Origin: Polynucleobacter sp. Tro8-14-1
Lineage (GTDB): Bacteria > Pseudomonadota > Gammaproteobacteria > Burkholderiales > Burkholderiaceae
Reading direction: 5' to 3'
Length of the DNA: 64,000 nt
NCBI RefSeq assembly: GCF_018881655.1
Contig: NZ_JACVPX010000009.1
Span: 67,002-131,001, forward strand
Within the stretch, counting starts at the first letter, position 1. Every line of letters starts with the position of its first letter. Below the pieces are notes generated by a model. The model did not search any database, was not told where the DNA came from, and saw only the letters and a program-made list of their open reading frames with translations. Shown here piece by piece: positions 40-12,728 of the stretch. The translations under genes and the position numbers were made by a program.

Positions 40-2301
40 TCATAGGCCTCTATCAAATAGATCATCAATTTCATCAATGGAAATTTTGACCGGCCCCTCA
101 TACTCATGATCGCAATCATCATATGCGTTCATAAGATATTTCTCAAACTCATAGGGTATATCCACTGTTTCAATGATTTGATTGACATCCTCACCCGTGA
201 ATTCAAGACCTATATTACTTAACTCCCTCTCAACAATTTGAGCCAAAGAGTCCTCGGCCTCCTCATCACCACCATCCCGGGCATTAGAGAAGGCTTCATT
301 TAAATCAATAAACTCTGAAAAATTATCTGCAATTTGCTCTATGCTGCTTATTTTTACAAGTTCAAAAATTTTAGAATAATTAGGTTCAGAGTTTGGAATG
401 CTTGCCAAGAGTGACTGGACTGTCTTCATTTGCGTATACGAATAAATCGAATTCGCTGAACTCTCAATAAAACTAAGCGTTGCCATAGGTTCTATGATGC
501 CCCGCTTAAGACCCCACTCAACCACCTCAAATGAATGATCCGTGATTTCTGCGCCATTGTTTAGAATGTATAACAAGGTGCAGCTTATCTCATCGATGAT
601 CTTGCTATCTTCGCGCAAGCAATCTTTATATAAAGCGCATAGCGCTGATATATATTCAGAATCCACATTACCAAATTGGTCTTTTTCGAGATCTTTAATA
701 AGCTTCTCGCAAATATTATGTACATCATCTTGAGATAAATATTTATCAGCCCATAGACTACGGATCGTTATCACGGAACGCAATGTCAGCAAGCTCTGAA
801 AACAAAGTTGAAAGGTGTCAACATCTCCAGAATAACGTTTAAGAATGTAATCCCCAATAGATGGATTAAATAAGTCAATAAGCGACCTTCCATCCGACAA
901 AACTGTCCGATTAAAAAATGACCCCGTTAACAAACGTATGCTGGATTGAAACTCATGCCTACCTTTAAAGTTGCGACACCTGGGTAAAAGCAAAAATCTA
1001 TGATAGGCCTCAGAAAGAATTTTTTCCTCGATTGGCCCGCCGTTTAAGACCATTAGAAGTATTAATAGACGACCATAATCATCTTGCTGCGCATTAAATG
1101 GGTTTTCCCAAACTTGGGATGGATTTGATAGGGACTGAGAAATGAATTGCCAATAATTAGCAGCAGAATTTGATTCCAGCCTTGTGGCATCGGTAATATA
1201 GCTAATTAGACGAGGATTAAAATTTTTGTGCGCAATCACATCTCTGTATCTTTTATTAAGATATAGCTCTTCTACATATGAATCATCTAAATTTGAATAC
1301 CAGATATGGTTATATAAAATATGAGCTTTATCGATATCTTTAAGAGATTTTATGCGTAACTCATATTCATTTTTTTGTGTATTTCCGTGATCAAAGTTAT
1401 CGATCAAGAATTTTCCTTGATTTAATATGGTGCTTCTTGAAGTCAAAACAAATCTTTTATTTTTATTTGATGCAACACGTCTCATAAACATTGTTATTTG
1501 ATTCCCCTCATGACCCCCCAAGGCTTCTAGATAATTTCTACCTAAAAAATCGTCAAAATAAAATACTTGCTTGCTTTCAGAATCAAAGGCGGACTCTGCC
1601 TCGCGAATATCGTTGACTACCCTGAAGTAGGCAAACCCTTTGGCAACATAGTGAAGGCATAAATGGTCCGCGAGGGTAGTTTTTCCTACGCCGGGCTCAC
1701 CCGCAATAATCACCACCCCCAATCGATCTAAGATCTGCAACGCTGCCTCGTGGTTTGTAGTCACAACATAACGCGAGCTAGATGCAATAATTTCCTCAAG
1801 GGAATGTGCACTTCTTCCCAATATTGCATTGTTATAAATTTGCTCTAGGACTGCAGTACTATGCATCCAGAGCTTATAGTGTCGCTTCTCAATTTTAGGT
1901 CTAGCGCGAAGAAGATCATTAAGATCCTCCATGCCCAAGATGTCGCTTTCCGCCTGAATATACGGCGCCAGTAAATCTGAAATTTGTTTTTTATTGTGTC
2001 TCGATAGTGGGTGTGAGATTGCTAACAGATAACGTTTTGGCTTTAGCTTATCAAGCTTGATCTTTTCATCGCTACCAAGCTTTTTGATAAGCTGGGCTAA
2101 AGATGTGCCAAGCTGATGCTTGCATTGCAGAATTACCTCATCCCCATCTGAACTAAAATATCTCCCATCTACTCCGCCATCTTTACCAGGTTTAAATCTC
2201 TCAAAACGTTGGCCATGAGAGTCCCCAATCAAATCAGAGCAAAAAATCTCAAATTCTTTATCGTTAAGCGATCTAAAATCATAGTCGGACATAGGCACCA
2301 T
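40..2301 (-). CDS. Mrr-type nuclease / STAND-family NTPase (probable anti-phage defence protein)
   Basis: The 753-residue protein joins an N-terminal PD-(D/E)XK domain of the Mrr type (about residues 5-150; GKDGGVDGRYF with D45, then the variant Q59-C-K61) to a P-loop NTPase: Walker A GEPGVGKT at 201-208 and Walker B VFYFDD near 246-251. The helical C-terminal 400 residues have no motif I recognise. Known single-protein defence sensors of the STAND (Avs-like) class combine an effector nuclease, an NTPase and a target-sensing C-terminus, and the layout here fits that. It is on the same strand as the phage-type genes to its right, 145 bp after terL. A second in-frame ATG lies three codons inside (2292). 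Domain calls are secure; the defence role is inferred from architecture and from the restriction system nearby. Confidence 0.8.
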   Translation of the reverse strand: MVPMSDYDFRSLNDKEFEIFCSDLIGDSHGQRFERFKPGKDGGVDGRYFSSDGDEVILQCKHQLGTSLAQLIKKLGSDEKIKLDKLKPKRYLLAISHPLSRHNKKQISDLLAPYIQAESDILGMEDLNDLLRARPKIEKRHYKLWMHSTAVLEQIYNNAILGRSAHSLEEIIASSSRYVVTTNHEAALQILDRLGVVIIAGEPGVGKTTLADHLCLHYVAKGFAYFRVVNDIREAESAFDSESKQVFYFDDFLGRNYLEALGGHEGNQITMFMRRVASNKNKRFVLTSRSTILNQGKFLIDNFDHGNTQKNEYELRIKSLKDIDKAHILYNHIWYSNLDDSYVEELYLNKRYRDVIAHKNFNPRLISYITDATRLESNSAANYWQFISQSLSNPSQVWENPFNAQQDDYGRLLILLMVLNGGPIEEKILSEAYHRFLLLPRCRNFKGRHEFQSSIRLLTGSFFNRTVLSDGRSLIDLFNPSIGDYILKRYSGDVDTFQLCFQSLLTLRSVITIRSLWADKYLSQDDVHNICEKLIKDLEKDQFGNVDSEYISALCALYKDCLREDSKIIDEISCTLLYILNNGAEITDHSFEVVEWGLKRGIIEPMATLSFIESSANSIYSYTQMKTVQSLLASIPNSEPNYSKIFELVKISSIEQIADNFSEFIDLNEAFSNARDGGDEEAEDSLAQIVERELSNIGLEFTGEDVNQIIETVDIPYEFEKYLMNAYDDCDHEYEGPVKISIDEIDDLFDRGL

Positions 2302-2446: not shown

Positions 2447-4756
2447 TCAACCCCCTTCAGTCAATGACCGCCGCCTCATTAACCCATACCTAGTGGCATC
2501 CCAAGCATGGTCTTCGGCATCGGTATCCACATCTTCGGGGTTTAGTGAATCTGGCGGCAATTGGGGTATGGTTCTAAGCCAATGCTTGCAAGTGCTAAAT
2601 ACTTTGAGTCTTTCTTCAGCCAGAAGCCGGATGATTTCTTGGGCTCCGTTTACTCTGCTTCTGGGGGCGTTGTAGGCCTCGGTCCATTTAACGCCTTTGT
2701 CCCTGAAGATTTGTCCGATAGATCGCTCTGCTCCAATCTTAGAAAATATGGATGGGTCAGCCAGGTTCATGCGGTATTCATAACCAAGGCGTTGGTCGTG
2801 GATCTCAATCTTCTTAATTTTCTCCGCTACTACCGTTGCGTCTTCTCTCGTACCGGTATTTTCTTTATCTCCATATCCATAGAGTTCTCTCCATAGATAA
2901 TAGACTCCATCATTGGATAAGGCAAACCAATAGACGGCATAAGGTCTGGCATAACCCCAATCCATAGAGCGCCAGACCTTCCATGTCGGTGGAATTGCGA
3001 AGGGTTCTACAACGTGTTTAGAGGGCTGCCATACGCCTTCCAAGAAACTACCTACGTGGATATCCCAATCTCCTTCTAACCACGCTCTACGTCTGCTTGG
3101 ATCACTTAGCGACTCCAAGCTCACGAGGTAGTTGGGATCATTTCTGAGTAGGTGCGTGTTCTCGTAAATCGTTGAATGAATTCTGACTCTTGGGAGTGCG
3201 CCATCTGGTCTGATGATTTGACCTGCTGGAATACTTCCAATCTGAAATCTTTCTTTTACCGATGCATGTCCTACTCCAAATGGATTGCAAGTAGCCCTCA
3301 CCATCCTAGGGATTCCGGGTTGCGAAGATCGACAAGTACTGAGCATCGCCTCGTAAAATGAAAGGTTGCGCCAGTTAGTGAGTTCTTCAAATCCCAGCCA
3401 GCAATTTTTATTAATTAGGCCAGTTTCTGTAATGTAGTGATTACTTTCTTCAACTGTTATATCCATTATTAAAGAGGAGCCACATGATTCATACACCACC
3501 CAACCATCTTTTAGTCGACGATTCGTTTTTTGAATTTTCCCACTGTAAGGATGAGGGTAAGCCGTTACGTCATCGTAACGGCTACCTGTATGAGCGCTGT
3601 CCGAAACATCCGCAAGCAGACTTACATGGACGCGTTCTTCAGCACCGCCGTGAAATGGAGCGCCACCTGGGTCGATTTTTAAAAGGGCATGAAGTTGTTC
3701 ATCACTTAAATGGAAAGAAGGATGACAACCGAATTGAAAATCTTGAGCTGCTTGGATCTTCTCGGGAGCATATGCAAGCGCACTCGAAGCGCAGAGATCT
3801 AGCCGTGATTGAAAGGGTTCGAAAAGCTGCGCAAAATCCCAAAGCCCCGATTCATTCGCTTGGCATAAGCCCAGTTCTTGCTCGCGCCATCTGCCGTGAT
3901 AATGCGATCGAGTGGATTCCGGCGGATGAGACAAGACTTGATCCAACGGATGTGCAGCAAGCATTAAATGGTCGAAAAACGGCCGACGCTGCCAAAATTC
4001 TGGGAGTGTCTGTAGGAACTCTATATCGTAATTTTCCCGAGCTTTTAAGTAAGCGCAAGCCCCCTGGTTTTTTGGATAGCTATATAGAGGAGATTTGCAT
4101 CCTTGCCATGACCTTGAGCACTGATCAAATTGCGAAAAACTTCGGGACAACTCGGACGACCATGAATAAGGCTTTTGAACGTTGGTCAGCAACTGGTGAT
4201 CTACCGATTGAACTTGTGAGCCGATTAAACGCTGATGGTCGTCGTAAACGTAAGCTCTAACGCATTCTTTGACCTGCGGTTCAAACGTACGAGTAATGCG
4301 CCGCTCGCCATCTAAGGTGACAACCTTATCTCCAATGCGAAGCCTATCCATTGGAACGAATCCATTCGGCGTTAAGACTGGCGTCTCAAGGGCAACGCAA
4401 TACTCATGGCCGTGGTAATTCCAGTAGTCGTCTTCGTTAGCTCCATAACGAAAGTACAGCATTTCCCCTGTGGGCCACTTCCAGACGTAATCTGATTCAT
4501 TGAACTTGGCTCCAGGGAAGATTTGATAGAACCAACGCTTGCTCTTAGCTACTACGTCAGCTAGCTGCGGATAAGTTAGACGAAAGAGTGTTCCGCGCCA
4601 GTGATCCCCAAAGCCTCTTCCTACATGTTGGGCATAGCTCATGAGTAGGGTATCGGTCTTACCCCCTCCTCTGGTGCCTTCGAGCAATACCTCATACACG
4701 GGACATGTCAGAAACAAAGTCTGGCTGCCGGGCAATGGCGCCCAAATAGTTTTCAT
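2447..4756 (-). CDS. Phage terminase large subunit interrupted by an intein
   Basis: Terminase large subunit: an ATPase plus RNase H-fold nuclease that cuts and packages phage DNA into proheads. The ATPase half has a variant Walker A (GTRGGGKT, residues 27-34) and Walker B in LGFEE just after the intein (about 454-458). The nuclease half has the first acidic site in MDWGYA, a second in NLADPS and the C-terminal DHAWDATRYGL signature. The reading frame is 769 codons, but residues 120-451 are an intein; splicing gives 437 residues, a usual TerL size, with extein junction GHEY/CWLGF. The TerS-like gene is 17 bp upstream. No strong Shine-Dalgarno precedes the ATG. No portal gene follows, so the packaging module is an orphan. 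Family assignment is firm; whether it still works is unknown. Confidence 0.93.
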   Translation of the reverse strand: MKTIWAPLPGSQTLFLTCPVYEVLLEGTRGGGKTDTLLMSYAQHVGRGFGDHWRGTLFRLTYPQLADVVAKSKRWFYQIFPGAKFNESDYVWKWPTGEMLYFRYGANEDDYWNYHGHEYCVALETPVLTPNGFVPMDRLRIGDKVVTLDGERRITRTFEPQVKECVRAYVYDDHQRLIGSQVQSVDHQLLTNVQKPYSWSSELSRSFSQFDQCSRSWQGCKSPLYSYPKNQGACAYLKARENYDIEFLQTLPEFWQRRPFFDHLMLAAHPLDQVLSHPPESTRSHYHGRWREQELGLCQANESGLWDFAQLFEPFQSRLDLCASSALAYAPEKIQAAQDFQFGCHPSFHLSDEQLHALLKIDPGGAPFHGGAEERVHVSLLADVSDSAHTGSRYDDVTAYPHPYSGKIQKTNRRLKDGWVVYESCGSSLIMDITVEESNHYITETGLINKNCWLGFEELTNWRNLSFYEAMLSTCRSSQPGIPRMVRATCNPFGVGHASVKERFQIGSIPAGQIIRPDGALPRVRIHSTIYENTHLLRNDPNYLVSLESLSDPSRRRAWLEGDWDIHVGSFLEGVWQPSKHVVEPFAIPPTWKVWRSMDWGYARPYAVYWFALSNDGVYYLWRELYGYGDKENTGTREDATVVAEKIKKIEIHDQRLGYEYRMNLADPSIFSKIGAERSIGQIFRDKGVKWTEAYNAPRSRVNGAQEIIRLLAEERLKVFSTCKHWLRTIPQLPPDSLNPEDVDTDAEDHAWDATRYGLMRRRSLTEGG
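3473..3479 (+). promoter_or_regulatory. Ribosome binding site of the antisense HNH gene
   Basis: AGAGGAG ends 4 nt before the ATG at 3484, with the GAGG core 6 nt away. It shows that the HNH gene is translated separately and not as part of the intein precursor. The same bases encode part of the C-terminal splicing segment on the other strand. Confidence 0.8.
3484..4260 (+). CDS. HNH homing endonuclease encoded antisense inside the intein
   Basis: 258-residue HNH nuclease. The HNH core is at about residues 65-100: GHEVVHHLNGKKDDNRIENL with the His pair at 73-74, Asn in DDN and ENL, and trailing His residues in EHMQAH. Behind it are two helix-turn-helix-like segments (about 165-190, LNGRKTADAAKILGVSVGTL; and about 208-235, STDQIAKNFGTTRTTMNKAF), as expected for DNA target recognition by homing endonucleases. 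The gene lies wholly within the intein but on the other strand, so its transcript is antisense to terL. It has a good ribosome site (AGAGGAG). Its last 24 or so codons are antisense to the block-B region of the splicing domain. The opposite frame has no stop over the full length, as required if the intein must be translated. The coding call is strong; homing activity is inferred from context. Confidence 0.92.
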   Translation: MIHTPPNHLLVDDSFFEFSHCKDEGKPLRHRNGYLYERCPKHPQADLHGRVLQHRREMERHLGRFLKGHEVVHHLNGKKDDNRIENLELLGSSREHMQAHSKRRDLAVIERVRKAAQNPKAPIHSLGISPVLARAICRDNAIEWIPADETRLDPTDVQQALNGRKTADAAKILGVSVGTLYRNFPELLSKRKPPGFLDSYIEEICILAMTLSTDQIAKNFGTTRTTMNKAFERWSATGDLPIELVSRLNADGRRKRKL

Positions 4757-4773
4757 TGGTTTTGTTTAATTCA

Positions 4774-5226
4774 CTAGTGTTTTGCTTGGGCGACTTGCTC
4801 CCACTCATCTATGCTCATAGCGCTGGGCACCACCAAGACTCCACTCTGTAGAGGTGCGCCATCTTTACCGGTGTGCTCAATTGCTGAGAGACGTGGATGA
4901 ACATAGGGCGCAGCATGCCTGGCGATAGTAGCAGCCATGTTCAGGAGTTTGATTCGACTCTCGGTGATCATGATGTCATGATCATGACCTACACCTTCAT
5001 GAGCATGATCATCATGCTTAGTGCAGTTTTCTGCCTCCTTGTAAAGCGCCATCATGGTTCTCATCATGACCTCTAAAGGTGTAATGCCCTGCGCGGCGGC
5101 TACCTCTGCAATTTCACGAGTCCTCTTGGTGAGGCTTCCCTCTTTACGCCCTGCTCCTGGCCTAGCTCCTCCTTTATTTGCCGGCTTTGCTTTTGGCTTT
5201 GATTTCTTTTGATTGTTTTCAATCAT
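4774..5226 (-). CDS. Probable phage terminase small subunit
   Basis: A 150-residue basic protein with the N-terminal GGARPGAGRKEGS signature common in phage small-terminase and related DNA-binding proteins, followed by a helical segment (residues 35-65), a His/Asp-rich stretch (KHDDHAHEGVGHDHD, about 75-90) and a second helical part. It lies directly upstream of terL and overlaps the preceding small gene by 4 nt (ATGA), so it is in one transcription unit with it. TerS recognises the packaging site and recruits TerL; the position and signature support that role, but the protein is not a textbook HTH TerS. The His-rich stretch could bind metal. Two palindromes lie inside the gene. Confidence 0.65.
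   Translation of the reverse strand: MIENNQKKSKPKAKPANKGGARPGAGRKEGSLTKRTREIAEVAAAQGITPLEVMMRTMMALYKEAENCTKHDDHAHEGVGHDHDIMITESRIKLLNMAATIARHAAPYVHPRLSAIEHTGKDGAPLQSGVLVVPSAMSIDEWEQVAQAKH
4975..5017. repeat. Two palindromes inside the TerS-like gene
   Basis: GTCATGATCATGAC at 4975-4988 is a perfect 14-bp palindrome. GCATGAT-C-ATCATGC at 5003-5017 is a 7-bp inverted repeat around one central base. Their centres are about 28 bp apart. They encode the His/Asp-rich stretch, so codon bias for His and Asp could produce them. Packaging (pac/cos) sites often lie in terS, so they are a candidate site. Confidence 0.5.
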
Positions 5227-5465
5227 GATGATGCTTCTGGTCTTCTGATCATCTTCAAAAGATGAGGTTGCAATGCCACTGAATCACCAAAGGGCTCATC
5301 AAACTCGATGATGATTCTCTGGAACAGATCATGACGACTTTGAGCCCCGCGATGCTTTACAACTGTGCCTACGCGGCCACTTGGGGTTTTAACGATTGAT
5401 CCAATTGGGAAATCTTCCATATCGGGTCGATCAATGATTCCGGCTATACATGGGTTAGCTTGCAT
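5223..5465 (-). CDS. Small SH3/KOW-like phage protein
   Basis: About 80 residues starting MQANPCIAG. The central part (DFPIGSIVKTPSGRVGTVVK and a following basic-aromatic strand region) resembles small SH3-like beta-barrels found in phage replication modules. The start at 5465 was chosen because GGAG lies about 8 nt upstream and because the ATG overlaps the stop of the preceding gene by 11 nt. A longer open frame extends to 5600, but only within that gene. Its own stop overlaps the TerS-like start by 4 nt. I do not recognise a specific family. Confidence 0.6.
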   Translation of the reverse strand: MQANPCIAGIIDRPDMEDFPIGSIVKTPSGRVGTVVKHRGAQSRHDLFQRIIIEFDEPFGDSVALQPHLLKMIRRPEASS

Positions 5466-6357
5466 GGGAAAACTCCGTTGTAGCTGGGATCTCTTTTCTT
5501 TTTCGCAGTTCAGCAAAGATTCTGGTTTTGAAAGAGTCATAACTCTCCGAGCCTTGAGCTCGCATTCCAAGCTCTCGTCCTTTAAGGTCGATTCCCTCAT
5601 TCGATTTCCACCAGGTATCTTCAGAGGAATCTAGGGCATGTGCTTTCCTGCGCATTCCTTTCAGAATGGCTAGAACAAATCCAGCATTGATCGGGGTAGA
5701 GCTTGATGCCCTCCTTCGCATTTCCTTTGCCTGGGCAATAGCCACCTCAACATCTTCAACGGTTAGGCCTTGTTGAATCAACTGGGCAATACGCTCATCG
5801 TCTTCTCCAATATTTAAACCCTCCTTTTCAAAAAGAGTTTGAATTTGTTTTTTCCTTTCACCATCGCCTTGTAAAACTTTTTCGATTTCACCCCCATTGT
5901 TTTGTTTGTCTGGTGTATGGAGATTGGTGACTGGTGTTTGGTGTTTGGTGTCTGGTGAGCGTTGCGTTCGCAATGCGGTCGCAATGCGAACGCATGAATT
6001 GTGAAGTTCATTTTCTTGGCGCAAATCATCTGACTGAAACGCTTGCCAACGACCCTCAGCACTACGTCTAGCCTTGATTTGCTTATCTTTAAAGCGGGCT
6101 ATTTCATGATCACAGCGCTCTTGTCTCCAGCCATCGTCTGTGAGAGTAAAAAATTCATTCAGGACCGAAATAACTGAATTTTTTTCTTCTTTTGATCGTG
6201 CATTGATCAATCGTTGCACTAGCTTCACATCGATCGGCAATGGTTTTTCTGTGGCGTAATACTTTCTAATTAAACGGCTATAAGTAGCGTCTTCGATAAA
6301 GGTTAGATGTGCAGTAGCTTCTGCGTAATCTCCTATGTGATGCTCGTAATAATTCAT
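5455..6357 (-). CDS. DUF1376 (YdaU-like) phage replication-type protein
   Basis: A 300-residue protein whose first 100 residues (MNYYEHHIGDYAEATAHL, then a short basic-aromatic region ending in WRQERCDHEIARF) match the DUF1376/YdaU family found in the replication region of lambdoid and related prophages. The middle (110-180) is a Gln/Thr/Asn-rich linker, and the C-terminal 110 residues are charged and helical. Upstream is the divergent AlpA-type module; downstream are the SH3-like, TerS and TerL genes on the same strand. The linker DNA contains seven tandem 7-bp repeats and a 10-bp inverted repeat. The family call is good; the biochemical role of DUF1376 is not established. Confidence 0.8.
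   Translation of the reverse strand: MNYYEHHIGDYAEATAHLTFIEDATYSRLIRKYYATEKPLPIDVKLVQRLINARSKEEKNSVISVLNEFFTLTDDGWRQERCDHEIARFKDKQIKARRSAEGRWQAFQSDDLRQENELHNSCVRIATALRTQRSPDTKHQTPVTNLHTPDKQNNGGEIEKVLQGDGERKKQIQTLFEKEGLNIGEDDERIAQLIQQGLTVEDVEVAIAQAKEMRRRASSSTPINAGFVLAILKGMRRKAHALDSSEDTWWKSNEGIDLKGRELGMRAQGSESYDSFKTRIFAELRKRKEIPATTEFSHAS
5911..5959. repeat. Seven tandem 7-bp TGGTGNN repeats
   Basis: Heptamers TGGTGTA, TGGAGAT, TGGTGAC, TGGTGTT, TGGTGTT, TGGTGTC and TGGTGAG follow one another without spacing (exact TGGTG at 5911, 5925, 5932, 5939, 5946 and 5953). The period is not a multiple of three although it lies in a coding sequence, so selection on the protein alone would not produce it. 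It may be an iteron array or a simple-sequence expansion. Confidence 0.85.
5963..5994. repeat. 10-bp perfect inverted repeat next to the heptamer array
   Basis: TGCGTTCGCA at 5963-5972 and TGCGAACGCA at 5985-5994 are exact reverse complements with a 12-nt spacer that itself contains a further GCAATGCG direct repeat. It lies 3 bp beyond the heptamer array, on the side towards the start of the DUF1376 gene. Confidence 0.75.
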
Positions 6358-7140: not shown

Positions 7141-8874
7141 TTAAGCTAGCGCTTGTGAAACAAGGGTATCAGCGATTTTTCTCTGCAACTCACCAGCCTT
7201 GCTGTTTTGATCCTGTAGTGCAGAGCACATTTCAAGCAGTTCGTCTACTTTTGAAACTATTTCAAGTTGCTCCTCTATTGGGGGCATAGGCATCCAGGTT
7301 GCACGAATAATATCAATATTCAAATTTGGTTGCCCCTGTCCTTGCGCTGCTATATTTAAGAACCAATCTGATAGATGGGTTAAATATAAGTGTAGGTACT
7401 CATCAGATACGAATTTACTTAAATTAATAAACGCTGCTATACCGTCATTGAAGGTAGTTTCAAAATCACAGATTGCAGAGATCCCAAGCGTTGCCCCACT
7501 GTTTGTAAGCAATACTGTCCTCCCCTTTACCAGCCTTGTTTTGTGTAGCCCAGCCTCCTTGATCGAAGACGTCCACCCCTCTACCATTTTTCCAGAAGAT
7601 CGCGTTATATCCCCAACTTTCAGGAAAGGAATCGAGCCATTATAAAAACGGGGATCTCCCGCCGGCCTTGGAGAACCACCTCGAACTACCTCGGCAATTT
7701 CCCCTAATCGAACCCAGCACCACCCGCTAGAAATAGGCATTTTAAGAGACTCAAGGCCATCAAATTCAATAAACTGATCTTTTTCCTTTAATGTGCCCTT
7801 AGAAATTAGCAGAACCCGTTCGGAGCGCATCTCGTTATACAGACTTTTTGAATTACCATTATCAGAATCACTGCAAGTTAATCGACCGCTGATGCCTAGC
7901 TCCAAAATTACCTTCTTGAGGGCTCTAATTCCAAATTCAGCATTAAATAGTTGATTAAAACCTTTCTCAAGCAGATTATTCTTAGAGGATTTAATTAGAT
8001 CATGCAGAAATGATTTGACCAATACTTCATATGAGGCAGAAAGAGCCATAGACGACTTTTCAATTTGGTCACATAACTTCATGAGCTCATCCACCTTTTC
8101 CAATATTCTGACTTGTTCATTTTGGGGTGGAAGCGCAACAGGTGTTTCAATAATCTTTTCGCGAGATATATTTGGCTGAGCGCCACCTGTGCCTTGACTA
8201 ATAAAGTTAGATCTCATAGCTTTAAGCAGAAGCAAAAGATACTTATTCGAGATTCCTGGATAAGGGCTGCATGCGCAGACTGCCTGATTTGTAGTCCCAC
8301 TAACATCTAGTATCGACGCCTTACCAATAGTTGCGCCATACATAGCTAATAGAACGTCTCCGGCTCTATTCATCCGGAGGGAACATTCTTCCATTGCTAG
8401 CTTAGAAACAGTTTCTTCAGAAACGCTAATTAAATCATCAGATAACTCACCAGACTTAAACCAAGGGATTCCGCCTCCATAATAGGCAGAAATACTTCGT
8501 AGTGGGGTTGCTCCAGCACCCCAGTCACCTAGTTCGCCAAGCCTTATCCATTCCCACCCATTAGGCAAAAAGAATGTCCGTTCATTTTCGGCAACCTTGT
8601 CATAGGATTTCTGCTTTCGAACTAGCCCGTGAGATATTGATTCATTCACATATTGAGTAATTTGATTTAGTAACTCAGATGCGGGCTCATCAGCCGGGGA
8701 TTGTTCAAGCAACTTCCCTCTAATTGCTAATTGAAAAATTAGCGCCCTTAATTTACTGATCCCATAGATGCTGCTTGAAGCATCTGAAGACCGACCTCGT
8801 CCTGATTTTTTTTCTACATTTGCAGTGGTCCATACATTCATTTGCTTTATTAGCAATTGTTGAGTGGAGTTCAT
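7141..8874 (-). CDS. hsdS: Type I restriction-modification specificity subunit HsdS
   Basis: A 577-residue DNA-specificity subunit with the usual two target-recognition domains, each followed by a long conserved helix. TRD1 is at about 105-260 (NGWEWIRLGELGDWGAGATP through LPPQNEQVRILEKVDELMKL) and TRD2 at about 380-560 (SGWCWVRLGEIAEVVRGGSP through MPPIEEQLEIVSKVDELLEM). The N-terminal 90 residues are an extra helical part. Its start overlaps the hsdM stop (TAATG), so it is translationally coupled. HsdS sets the sequence recognised by both the methylase and the restriction complex; the target cannot be read from the sequence. No frameshift is seen. Confidence 0.93.
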   Translation of the reverse strand: MNSTQQLLIKQMNVWTTANVEKKSGRGRSSDASSSIYGISKLRALIFQLAIRGKLLEQSPADEPASELLNQITQYVNESISHGLVRKQKSYDKVAENERTFFLPNGWEWIRLGELGDWGAGATPLRSISAYYGGGIPWFKSGELSDDLISVSEETVSKLAMEECSLRMNRAGDVLLAMYGATIGKASILDVSGTTNQAVCACSPYPGISNKYLLLLLKAMRSNFISQGTGGAQPNISREKIIETPVALPPQNEQVRILEKVDELMKLCDQIEKSSMALSASYEVLVKSFLHDLIKSSKNNLLEKGFNQLFNAEFGIRALKKVILELGISGRLTCSDSDNGNSKSLYNEMRSERVLLISKGTLKEKDQFIEFDGLESLKMPISSGWCWVRLGEIAEVVRGGSPRPAGDPRFYNGSIPFLKVGDITRSSGKMVEGWTSSIKEAGLHKTRLVKGRTVLLTNSGATLGISAICDFETTFNDGIAAFINLSKFVSDEYLHLYLTHLSDWFLNIAAQGQGQPNLNIDIIRATWMPMPPIEEQLEIVSKVDELLEMCSALQDQNSKAGELQRKIADTLVSQALA

Positions 8875-10346
8875 TAGTTATTACCTCGTTGCAACGCCTC
8901 ACCAAGAATCAACTGAAGTTGAGCTCTTAAAATTGCAATATCTTCCTGTAAAAGATTATATTGAGCCAATAATGCTTCCGGATCTTGGGTTTCATGATGA
9001 CTAATGTGAGGATTTTTTATATCAAGGTTGTAATTTCTAGCCTTAATGTCAGCAATACTTAACTTCCAAGCATATTCGCTTTTTTTACGAGCCCCAAAAC
9101 CATTACTTTCATTACCCCACCATTCTTTTTCAGCCTCAAATTCTTCAATCTTCATTGGCTTGGTCTTGTTATAACTCTTCACGCCATCTGGGTAAGGGTG
9201 TTCATAGAACCAAATTTCCTCAGTTGGACCGGCCTTTGTAAAGAACAGAAGATTTGTATTGATTGTTGTATATGGGGAAAATACTCCCTTAGGTAATCGC
9301 ACAATAGTATGAAGATTGCAATCTTCCAAAAGTTTTTCTTTGATACGTGTTTTTATACCATCACCAAATAGAAGGCTATCGGGCAGGACTACAGCGGCGC
9401 GCCCACCTGGCTTAAGCATTTGCATAATAAGAATTAGAAAAAGGTCTGCAGTTTCCCTTGTTCTAAAGGCTGCCGGGAAGTTGGTTTCTATCCCATCCTC
9501 TTCCATGCCGCCAAAAGGTGGATTGGTTACAACCACATCCACTCGCTCTGATGGGCCCCAACTGATTAGTGGTCTTGCCAAGGTGTTGTCGTGGCGGATG
9601 TTGCTTGGAACATCAATACCATGAAGAATCATGTTAGTTGTACAGAGTAAGTGCGGCATTGGTTTTTTCTCAATGCCGAAGATGCTGCCTTGAAGTTGTG
9701 CTTCGTCTTCTAATGTTTTGACATCTTGTTTTCTGATATGTTCAATTGAGCATGATAAGAATCCACCCGTTCCGCAGGCTGGGTCCATTACCTTTTCACC
9801 AAGACGCGGATTAACCATCTGCACCATGAATTCAGTTACGGCTCTTGGGGTATAGAACTCGCCTGCATTACCTGCTGCTTGCAAATCCCTAAGGAGTTGC
9901 TCATACATGTCTCCAAAGAGATGACGCTCTTGGGCTTTGTTGAAATCAACGCCCTCTTGAATCTTATTGATTACCTGGCGAATCAACTGCCCGGACTTCA
10001 TATAGTTATAAGCATCCTCAAATACCGAGCGAATAACGTAAGCGCGCTGATCACCGCCTTTGGCCTCTAGGTTTTGAAGTGCTGGAAATAGATCGTTATC
10101 TAAGAACTGCTTTAGCTCATCGCCGGTCATGCCCTCAGCATTAGCCGCCCAATTTCTCCAGCGATACTTTTCAGGGAGCGGAGACTTGTATTTATCCTGA
10201 AGCAATTCCCACTCGCTCTCACGATCATCAAAGATCTTTAGGAAGAGCATCCACACTAATTGACTCAAACGCTGGGCATCACCATCAACACCTACGTCTT
10301 TGCGCATGATGTCTTGAATTGATTTAATAGTTGAACTAATACTCAT
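8874..10346 (-). CDS. hsdM: Type I restriction-modification methyltransferase HsdM
   Basis: A 490-residue N6-adenine methyltransferase. The HsdM N-terminal helical domain (about 1-130) is followed by GEFYTPRAV (162-170), the AdoMet motif DPACGTGGF (188-196) and the catalytic NPPF (275-278). The C-terminus is a predicted coiled coil (YNLLQEDIAILRAQLQLI) for HsdS contact. It is the middle gene of hsdR-hsdM-hsdS on the minus strand, 39 bp after hsdR and overlapping hsdS by one base. It protects host DNA and forms the M2S1 methylase. All key motifs are intact. Confidence 0.96.
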   Translation of the reverse strand: MSISSTIKSIQDIMRKDVGVDGDAQRLSQLVWMLFLKIFDDRESEWELLQDKYKSPLPEKYRWRNWAANAEGMTGDELKQFLDNDLFPALQNLEAKGGDQRAYVIRSVFEDAYNYMKSGQLIRQVINKIQEGVDFNKAQERHLFGDMYEQLLRDLQAAGNAGEFYTPRAVTEFMVQMVNPRLGEKVMDPACGTGGFLSCSIEHIRKQDVKTLEDEAQLQGSIFGIEKKPMPHLLCTTNMILHGIDVPSNIRHDNTLARPLISWGPSERVDVVVTNPPFGGMEEDGIETNFPAAFRTRETADLFLILIMQMLKPGGRAAVVLPDSLLFGDGIKTRIKEKLLEDCNLHTIVRLPKGVFSPYTTINTNLLFFTKAGPTEEIWFYEHPYPDGVKSYNKTKPMKIEEFEAEKEWWGNESNGFGARKKSEYAWKLSIADIKARNYNLDIKNPHISHHETQDPEALLAQYNLLQEDIAILRAQLQLILGEALQRGNN

Positions 10347-10385
10347 AAGTGGTAATGCCTATCTATTGGGGTGTTGCCATGAATT

Positions 10386-12728
10386 TTAGGCGTAGAGCTG
10401 GTTTTCTAGCTCATGCAATGCAGCTATATAGCCCGGCTTACCGCCAAAGGCTGATACAAGTTCGCTAGCTGTGCCCATTTTACTAAATGGGTCTAGGGTC
10501 AGAATTTTAATATCATCGATATTCTCGATACCGGTATCTGCGTATTTTTCAAGTAAGGCCTCGAGAACCTTACGAGCCTGTTCGCCATACTTGGTGAAGT
10601 AATTACGCTTTTTGACTTGATCTGCACGCTCCCTACGAGTGAGTGCAGGCTGATCAAACGCTACATGGCAAATTAAATCAAAAGCATCGCAGTCTTTATT
10701 AACTTCGATCGCCAATGCCTCTAGTAAAAGGCCATGCTCTTCCAGCTCCTTAATAACAGCAGCCTTACGCTCAGCGGAAGTCCATCTCTTTAGAAATTGA
10801 TCTAGCGTTGAGTAGTCTTTTCGTACTGCTTTACGGGTGTAGTCCTTTAAGGACTCTGTAATCAACTTACCTTCGGGTCCGTAATACTGAACCCGCTCGG
10901 CAATAACCTGAACCTCTACATCACCCACAATGTATTTAGCTCTCACACCCTCTGGTCCAGGAGGAAAGCCAGGGGGTTCCGGAGGAACGGGCGGCTCAAC
11001 TCCGGGAGGCGTTGGCGGCTCCACCGGAGGAACCGGGGGGTCATCAACCCCAGGCTCATAGATAACAATTGGCGGACCATCAAATGCCTCATCAGCAAAA
11101 AGCTCGGTAGCCTTTTTAAAGTCCATGATGGTGAACCAGTACTTGTCGTAATCTTCGTTAATGCGGGTACCACGCCCAATCATCTGCTTGAACTCAGTCA
11201 TGGACTTGATATGTTGATCAAGCACTACTAATTTACAGGTCTGAGCATCTACACCAGTAGTCATTAGCTTAGAGGTTGTAGCAATTACTGGGTAACGTTC
11301 TTCTGGGTTAATGAAGTTATCAAGCTCAGCCTTGCCCTCTTGCTCATCACCGGTAATACGCATGACGTACTTGCGATTTTCTTTGACTCGCTCTGGATTT
11401 AGATTAACCAAGGCTTGACGCATGCGCTCTGCGTGATCAATGTCATCACAAAATACGATAGTCTTAGCAAATGGATCAGTAGCCGTTAAGAACTCAGTGA
11501 TTTTCTTTGCAACTAGCTCTGTACGCTTTTCTAAGACCAGGGTTCGATCCATGTCGTTCTGGTTGTAGATGCGATCCTCGATTAATTGACCACGTTTATC
11601 TACTTGTCCAGCACTGGGTCTCCAGCCTTGGAGATCCCTATCTATATCAATCCGGATTACTTTATACGGAGCAAGGAAACCATCTTCAATACCCTGCTTT
11701 AGTGAGTAGCTGTAAACAGGGTCACCAAAATAAGTAATGCTTGATATTTCTTTGGTTTCTTTTGGTGTAGCTGTTAAGCCAATGTGTGTGGCAGAGGAAA
11801 AGTAATCCAAGATCTCACGCCAAGCTGAATCTTCAGAGGCGCTGCCGCGATGACACTCATCAATCACGATCAAATCAAAGAAGTCTGGTGAGAACTGCTT
11901 ATAAATATTCTTTTCTTCATCGTTACCAGTAACAGCCTGGTAAAGGGATAAGTAAATTTCGTAGCTCTTATCAATCTGACGCTTGCTGATCTTAGTCATT
12001 GCAGCGCCAAATGGCTTGAAGTCATTATTCTTGGTTTGATCCACAAGGATATTGCGATCAGCTAAAAATAAAATGCGCTTCTTGGTTCCAGACTTCCATA
12101 AGCGCCAGATGATCTGAAAAGCTGTGTATGTCTTCCCGGTACCCGTAGCCATTACCAGCAGAATACGATTGGCACCATTGGCTACAGCTTCGATTGTTCT
12201 ATTGACTGCATTGACTTGGTAATACCTTGGAGCGCGCCCAGTGCCATCGTCGTAATAAGGCATTTCTACGGTATTTTTTGCCTCAGGGGTATCAACACCC
12301 TTCCATCTGCAATAACGCGCCCATAGCTCTTCTGGCGACGGGAATGCGTCCAAAGAAAGCTCTTGCTCTACCTTATCCGCCTGGCCAGTTCGATCATGCA
12401 TTAAGAATGCATCGCCATTTGAGCTAAAGACAAAAGGAACATCCAGCGTTTCCGCGTAATCAAGTGCTTGCTGCATTCCCGCGCCAACACTGAGGTTGTT
12501 TTCTTTAGCCTCGATTACGGCGATGGGAATATTAGATTTGTAATACAGGACATAATCTGCGCGCTTTTGCTGTCCGCGGGTATGTAATTTGCCGCGAACA
12601 ATAATGCGGCCTTTAGTAAAACTTAATTCCTCGCGAATTTGGGTGTGCAAATCCCAACCTGCGCCAAGAATGGCTGGCGTAATGAATTTCGTACAAATAT
12701 CTCGTTCGCTAAGGGATTTCTTGCTCAT
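10386..12728 (-). CDS. hsdR: Type I restriction endonuclease motor subunit HsdR
   Basis: A 780-residue protein of the EcoEI/EcoAI type. It has an N-terminal nuclease domain with D58 and E73-A-K75 of the PD-(D/E)XK fold and Gln86, then a superfamily 2 translocase with Walker A ATGTGKT (194-200), DECH (290-293) and LTATP; the helicase C-half contains [12 protein letters not shown] proline-rich linker (about 557-594; repeats of [11 protein letters not shown]) precedes the EcoEI_R_C-type C-terminal domain. It is the first gene of the operon. With HsdM and HsdS it cleaves unmethylated DNA at a distance from the site. All catalytic residues I can check are present, so the system looks active. Confidence 0.95.

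Follow-up and report, generated by a model that had tools for sequence, protein, structure and literature searches.

Analysis of 64,000 nucleotides (nt) of Polynucleobacter sp. Tro8-14-1 DNA (GCF_018881655.1, NZ_JACVPX010000009.1, positions 67,002–131,001, forward strand; hereafter the window) identified a phage terminase large subunit gene (terL) with a predicted intein whose complementary strand carries an intact HNH endonuclease gene. We consider it probable that the HNH protein, as predicted, cuts intein-free terL alleles and that repair then copies the whole composite of intein and nuclease gene. The recurrence of this back-to-back layout in other phage sequences, together with selection that keeps both frames open, points to an unrecognised class of mobile element.

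The intein interrupts terL after codon 119 of a 437-codon terminase and adds 332 codons. An initial sequence-only reading of the window had placed it from Cys120 to Asn451, with Cys452 as the +1 residue, and these coordinates were borne out:

2447–4756, minus strand: terL precursor, 769 codons, open, encoding a 437-amino-acid terminase large subunit plus the intein (PHROG terminase large subunit, 8e-30)
3404–4399, minus strand: predicted intein, 332 residues, Cys1 to Asn332 (TerL Cys120 to Asn451), +1 residue Cys452
4181–4399, minus strand: N-terminal splicing (Hint) part, intein residues 1–73
3572–4180, minus strand: intein middle, residues 74–276; frame open opposite the HNH gene, with disorder predicted for most of it
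3404–3571, minus strand: C-terminal splicing (Hint) part, residues 277–332, ending NHYITETGLINKN

The insert shows the features of a class 1 cis-splicing intein: a Hint fold, Cys or Ser at position 1, the block B His, a C-terminal Asn and Cys, Ser or Thr at +1. The window intein begins with Cys, and its C-terminal end, NHYITETGLINKN, is followed by C. Across 39 aligned inteins C1, T6 and H68 are invariant and N332 is present in at least 90%; the +1 residue is Cys, Ser or Thr in the composites compared, except for a Gln in L308, whose intein end was mis-set a few residues short. In the predicted structure, the C-terminal Hint block (residues 281–330) has a predicted local distance difference test score (pLDDT) of 70–92, and residues 74–140 and 151–276 fall below 50. 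Judged by eye, the family's inteins occupy two adjacent positions immediately preceding the Walker B segment. Curated intein hidden Markov models scored below cut-off for the window intein (Hint_2, 20.4 vs. 28.4; TIGR01443, 12.9 vs. 15.6), and the insert is therefore classed as a predicted intein. These weak scores would suit an intron-like or merely tolerated insertion, as would the description of the ShiLan insert as a tolerated insertion (PMC11855218). Rfam at gathering scores yielded only two tRNAs and no group I ribozyme in the window, on which ground the intron reading was rejected, and we regard an insert other than an intein as highly unlikely. Pfam found no nuclease domain in the intein frame; the nuclease is on the opposite strand only.

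The opposite strand carries the following features:

3484–4260, plus strand: antisense HNH endonuclease gene, 258 codons plus stop, intact
3640–3765, plus strand: HNH_3 domain, residues 53–94 (Pfam E 9e-10; 38.5 bits vs. a gathering score of 24.8)
3955–4029, plus strand: first helix-turn-helix, residues 158–182 (HTH_23)
4114–4251, plus strand: second helix-turn-helix-like part, residues 211–256 (HTH_29, E 9e-5, below gathering score)
3473–3479, plus strand: Shine-Dalgarno-like AGAGGAG preceding the HNH ATG, not conserved in the family

HNH_3 was detected in all 38 aligned HNH members, the window's included. A whole-model Foldseek search with the predicted HNH structure gave no match at E ≤ 0.001, and VIA-align matched part of it to I-HmuI (PDB 1u3e). 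Sequence searches of solved structures returned weak, unrelated rows only with the HNH protein alone and I-HmuI at E 0.03 with the HNH alignment. Unlike the gene described here, I-HmuI is encoded in a group I intron, and the match leaves out the helix-turn-helix parts.

Over the length of the HNH gene the three frames of the terL strand contain 12, 0 and 10 stops, the frame with none being that of terL. First codon positions of the two genes face each other and the third position of one faces the second of the other; a silent change in one therefore usually alters the other. When the HNH protein was held fixed and its synonymous codons were shuffled, 7.6 (own codons among synonymous places) or 8.4 (terL codon use) stops were expected in the window's terL frame, and 0 of 400 draws of either kind reached the observed zero. 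The sequence-only reading, which had recognised the intact 258-codon gene and the open frame opposite it, was right that selection keeps that frame open; its expectation of about 12 stops was too high. Over 20 lineages the same nulls predicted 161.6 and 168.4 stops, and none was observed. Antisense runs of at least 258 codons in the same frame occur in 0/21 other long open reading frames (ORFs) of the window and 0/173 of intein-free loci, with two of the 173 having such a run in another frame. A stop in the opposite (terL) frame is unavoidable wherever Phe precedes Met, Ile, Thr, Asn or Lys. Such dipeptides involve none of 333 Phe residues in 48 composite HNH proteins; they account for 3 of 159 Phe residues in the 27 nearest protein matches (all in P0024) and 97 of 379 in 85 weaker matches. 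Lacking these dipeptides, P0009–P0023 and P0025–P0027, from metagenome contigs, are predicted to be composites as well.

Substitution rates separate the two frames along the element, with two overlaps at the ends:

4181–4260, no single strand: dual-coding overlap of the HNH gene end with the N-terminal Hint part opposite; in three groups all three codon positions change slowly
3484–3571, no single strand: overlap of the HNH gene start with the C-terminal Hint part opposite; conservation follows the intein frame in the Polynucleobacter group (HNH-frame identity 0.52)

At the N-terminal Hint end outside the overlap, intein third positions change fastest (0.36–0.43 per site; second positions 0–0.09). 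In the intein middle the fastest positions are HNH third positions, which are intein second positions (0.25–0.27; others 0.05–0.10), and this HNH-frame bias is seen in three groups. In the N-side overlap every position is slow (0.03–0.14). The pattern indicates that the HNH gene is under purifying selection and that the splicing halves are conserved as protein; in the middle, by the same measure, the HNH frame is selected as protein and the intein frame avoids stops and otherwise drifts. The earlier proposal of selection on the intein frame thus holds for its being kept open; in the shared middle the selected frame is that of HNH, and both HNH ends overprint the splicing domain.

These data bear on three alternatives. 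A chance open frame or dying relic, with the HNH frame unselected and the intein frame open by luck, would fit the poorly conserved expression signals discussed below; the absence of stops where about 162 were expected, the third-position bias in three groups, an HNH frame intact in 50 contigs and the lack of such runs in the same frame of other long ORFs all speak against it. Chance was rejected on the shuffled nulls and antisense runs, and we give this explanation a negligible probability. It is extremely improbable that the intein middle is a functional domain under protein-level selection with the HNH gene secondary: the frame is unbroken in all 50 contigs, as that would require, but its second positions are the fastest there and most of it has low pLDDT, and the substitution pattern and low pLDDT led to its rejection. 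Improbable, too, is a primary role for the antisense transcript in pairing with terL mRNA and restraining terminase in the lysogen, nuclease activity being secondary. The layout does make the transcripts complementary over ~780 nt, but an RNA role needs neither conserved HNH codons nor residues invariant in 38 aligned members; an antisense RNA effect may be a side effect of the layout.

An intein-based scan of viral contigs gave 55 loci, of which 52 were examined (L302, L303 and L306, with 40–52 intein residues each, are outside this count). The scan was queried with HNH-bearing inteins and so favours HNH-bearing loci; within it an HNH ORF antisense to the intein was found in 51/52, some cut at contig ends. 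The search for homologs with an intact intein and a broken HNH frame, proposed by the earlier reading, produced one exception, L309, a 148-residue mini-intein that lacks the HNH gene rather than carrying a broken one. Both frames are whole in 50 distinct contigs, a set that also takes in the Polynucleobacter-type loci (window, L004, L005, L103, L104), L198 and L396. Tabulation covered 48 of the 50 (43 after merging inteins >99% identical; 20 lineages at <85% HNH identity), with L298 and L304, cut at contig ends, outside the table and L198 and L396 outside the table and the substitution and alignment sets. The host ORF was terminase large subunit by PHROG in 23/23 tested (the 20 lineages, L278, L198 and L396). 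In tabulated composites the HNH ATG lies 56–92 nt from the intein 3′ end (the 56 of L308 being uncertain) and the stop 43–199 nt from the 5′ end, which places the start and the end of the gene opposite splicing-domain sequence.

Loci reached only through the HNH domain, some sharing contigs, included one composite in 233 (L198) and none in which a match to this Hint profile shared a strand with HNH; 10 further loci were known composites. L396 was found through the terminase-intein precursor P0161, which has an unlike middle, and not by HNH query or intein-motif scan; it too has the HNH ORF. Of four HNH or intein queries, none was matched over 80% of its length in any of 50,697 phage records, and the family may therefore have been overlooked; all source-given names in its protein listing read "hypothetical protein". 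Plasmids, searched with one query, held no place covering 80% of it. Matches were present in 3 of 186 genus genomes, the genome itself included. At the level of the order (399 genomes, E ≤ 1e-15) and of the phylum (398, E ≤ 1e-20) that genome was the sole match. Lists of relatives comprise the best 80 of 264, of 147, of 482 and of 227. The comparisons suggest that the composites are a diverse, widespread family and not a single event; of the earlier picture of a mini-intein invaded by an HNH gene, the antisense composite layout stands and the single event does not. The founding event would have been entry of an HNH gene into a mini-intein in reverse.

Several related loci show other arrangements. 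TerL carries two inteins in L186 (2862–6485) and L198 (2778–6359), the Walker A intein with a sense-strand endonuclease-like domain (LAGLIDADG by eye) and the Walker B intein with an antisense HNH gene, which puts both nuclease layouts within one protein. P0160 and P0162, available as protein sequence only, are terminase inteins with similar Hint ends and an unlike Arg/Ser/Gly-rich middle without Pfam match; this middle could reflect a different gene encoded antisense to it. Two scans for the DNA of these two and of P0161 brought up relatives only. P0163 (protein only), a 614-amino-acid terminase, has in this region an apparent mini-intein too short to accommodate an HNH gene; it and L309 are the only HNH-less members noticed. 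In Pseudomonas phage BRkr a partial HNH relative is free-standing, flanked by tRNA and hypothetical genes.

Intein-free relatives (the best 80 of 264 minus two composites, leaving 78; best-segment identity 77–96%) were compared with composites around the insertion point:

3401–3403, minus strand: +1 Cys codon (TGC)
3287–3403, minus strand: terL downstream of the intein, probable co-conversion tract, 117 nt

Empty sites were located in 70 of the 78 alleles, the other 8 being missed by the search pattern. The empty site had been predicted as GHEY/CWLGFEEL (slash, insertion point); it reads GHEY/PWLGFEEL in 68 of the 70, with one Gln and one Gly at +1. Five near composites have Cys (TGC) there, a splice-competent residue absent from the located empty alleles. 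HNH third positions differ by 5–8% among the window, L004 and L104, and terL third positions by 28–33%. The 117-nt tract is 97–100% identical among these three vs. a mean of 0.852 in intein-free pairs, an excess matched by 0, 1 and 2 of 1415 intein-free pairs of similar divergence (64 alleles with full flanks; 1415 of 2016 pairs in the chosen range). In the 345-residue group (19 of 23 members; 153 of 171 pairs after dropping those short of flank), HNH third positions changed less than those of terL in 151/153 pairs, with 0.04–0.07 vs. 0.46–0.57 in eight listed extremes. In a FastTree terL tree, its topology taken without support values, the window, L104 and L004 group together, L005 falls amid intein-free alleles and L103 stands apart. 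These indirect footprints (an element more alike than its host gene, co-conversion in three alleles and the +1 change) fit homing and suggest that the composite moves between diverged terL genes.

Such movement bears on whether the HNH protein is a terminase packaging cofactor rather than a homing enzyme. Terminase-linked HNH proteins occur in HK97-like phages, and every host ORF tested here was terL; however, neither this HNH nor this Hint profile matched in the 78 intein-free loci (median locus 6.7 kb), where packaging seems independent of it. The cofactor explanation was rejected on those relatives, and we rate it very improbable.

The same genome also holds a second, broken terL relic (L002 638–1650; contig 21, ~4658–5670), 86% identical to the window over 900 nt, which retains the intein's C-terminal portion and the initial 30-odd codons of the HNH gene and ends near a tRNA-Ser-like sequence (type by eye).

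Some observations count against homing by the composite. Beyond the weak intein scores, the expression route of the HNH gene is the weakest link of the model: the gene was said to have its own Shine-Dalgarno, and AGAGGAG is indeed present in the window, but an SD-like 4-mer precedes the gene in only 7/20 lineages, and no promoter-like site was found upstream. In the Polynucleobacter group the intein frame dominates the C-side overlap, which argues against dual constraint on that segment. In the 345-residue group the first 60 nt downstream are only 0.77–0.92 identical. The L103 element, whose nearest terL by identity is an intein-free allele, is as diverged as its host gene, with no mobility footprint, and L005 shows a weak gap (0.22–0.23 vs. 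0.30–0.37) and no clear co-conversion. A composite mobile element, as first proposed, is nevertheless supported by relatives, nulls and controls.

In the homing model, translation of terL would give a precursor in which the two Hint halves fold round a disordered linker of ~203 residues, and splicing out of the intein would leave a terminase of 437 residues. Transcription of the plus strand, on a schedule separate from that of the late operon, would yield an I-HmuI-like HNH protein with helix-turn-helix parts, whose cut or nick would fall at the empty site, close to Walker B. Gene conversion would then import intein, nuclease gene, +1 Cys codon and ~100 nt beyond. Selection would remove in-frame stops antisense to the nuclease gene because TerL must be read through that strand. 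Splicing, HNH cleavage and plus-strand expression we infer from these features.

Consistent with a prophage, an integrase lies 11–12 kb to the left of the window, and a portal was matched at a score below the Pfam cut-off. The head operon includes a gene of defence type between terL and portal (40–2301, minus strand): its 753-amino-acid product has Mrr-like and nSTAND3 domains and matches the PADLOC candidate defence family PDC-S73 (1e-279). Type I restriction-modification S, M and R genes (7141–12728, minus strand) adjoin the phage genes, and an OLD-like nuclease (L003 9545–11197, minus strand) is encoded near the integrase.

No antisense endonuclease gene in an intein was found in the literature sections available, including PMC11855218, PMC9548176, PMC5050341, PMC3322345, PMC3229294 and PMC6801210; the closest parallels in them are I-DsqI, encoded antisense in a group I intron, and ShiLan, with its out-of-frame HNH. 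Mycobacteriophage TerL inteins insert in the TerL ATPase domain, TerL1-e at Walker B (PMC5050341). Like these and PI-SceI, the composite has a Hint domain, an ATPase-domain insertion and a nuclease between Hint halves; theirs is an in-frame domain of the spliced-out protein (PMC5050341), whereas the composite encodes its nuclease as an independent antisense gene and has an in-frame middle with mostly disorder predicted. The I-DsqI gene also lies opposite the strand of its splicing element, but that element is an RNA-level ribozyme in nuclear rDNA, the enzyme is of the His-Cys type and nothing requires the host strand to remain an open frame (PMC9548176); in the composite, each strand is protein-coding. 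In ShiLan an HNH gene overprints an insertion in an actinobacteriophage methylase that is open in the host frame, and the position occupied by Thr or Ser in invaded alleles is Pro in uninvaded ones; judged from the given start and stop positions it lies on the host gene's strand, and its authors found no splicing domain (PMC11855218). The window composite has Hint halves and HNH on the opposite strand, and is not of ShiLan type.

Fractured genes, with split inteins in two genes and a free-standing endonuclease gene between Hint halves, were reportedly described by Dassa and co-workers in 2009. They would share with the composite a nuclease gene separate from the Hint domain and between its halves; here, in contrast, one continuous frame spans the nuclease gene on the other strand.

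An endonuclease embedded in an intein is expected in the intein's frame because the intein must be translated through. The composite family would be another stable solution to housing an endonuclease within an intein. We think it reasonably likely, with less assurance than for homing itself, that the composites are a distinct, old intein class in the terminases of many phage lineages, in which the nuclease was cut loose and rewritten as an antisense gene. It could then be made without the late operon, for example in the lysogen, from an mRNA antisense to that of terminase, and both strands would be held open since a stop kills the host gene and damage to HNH stops spread. Whether a homing enzyme can be expressed at a different time from its host gene, and by what route inteins acquire endonucleases, now become approachable questions, as does the evolution of two opposite-strand proteins in which third positions of one face second positions of the other. 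The family also suggests a search rule: where an intein has a disordered middle, the other strand should be read.
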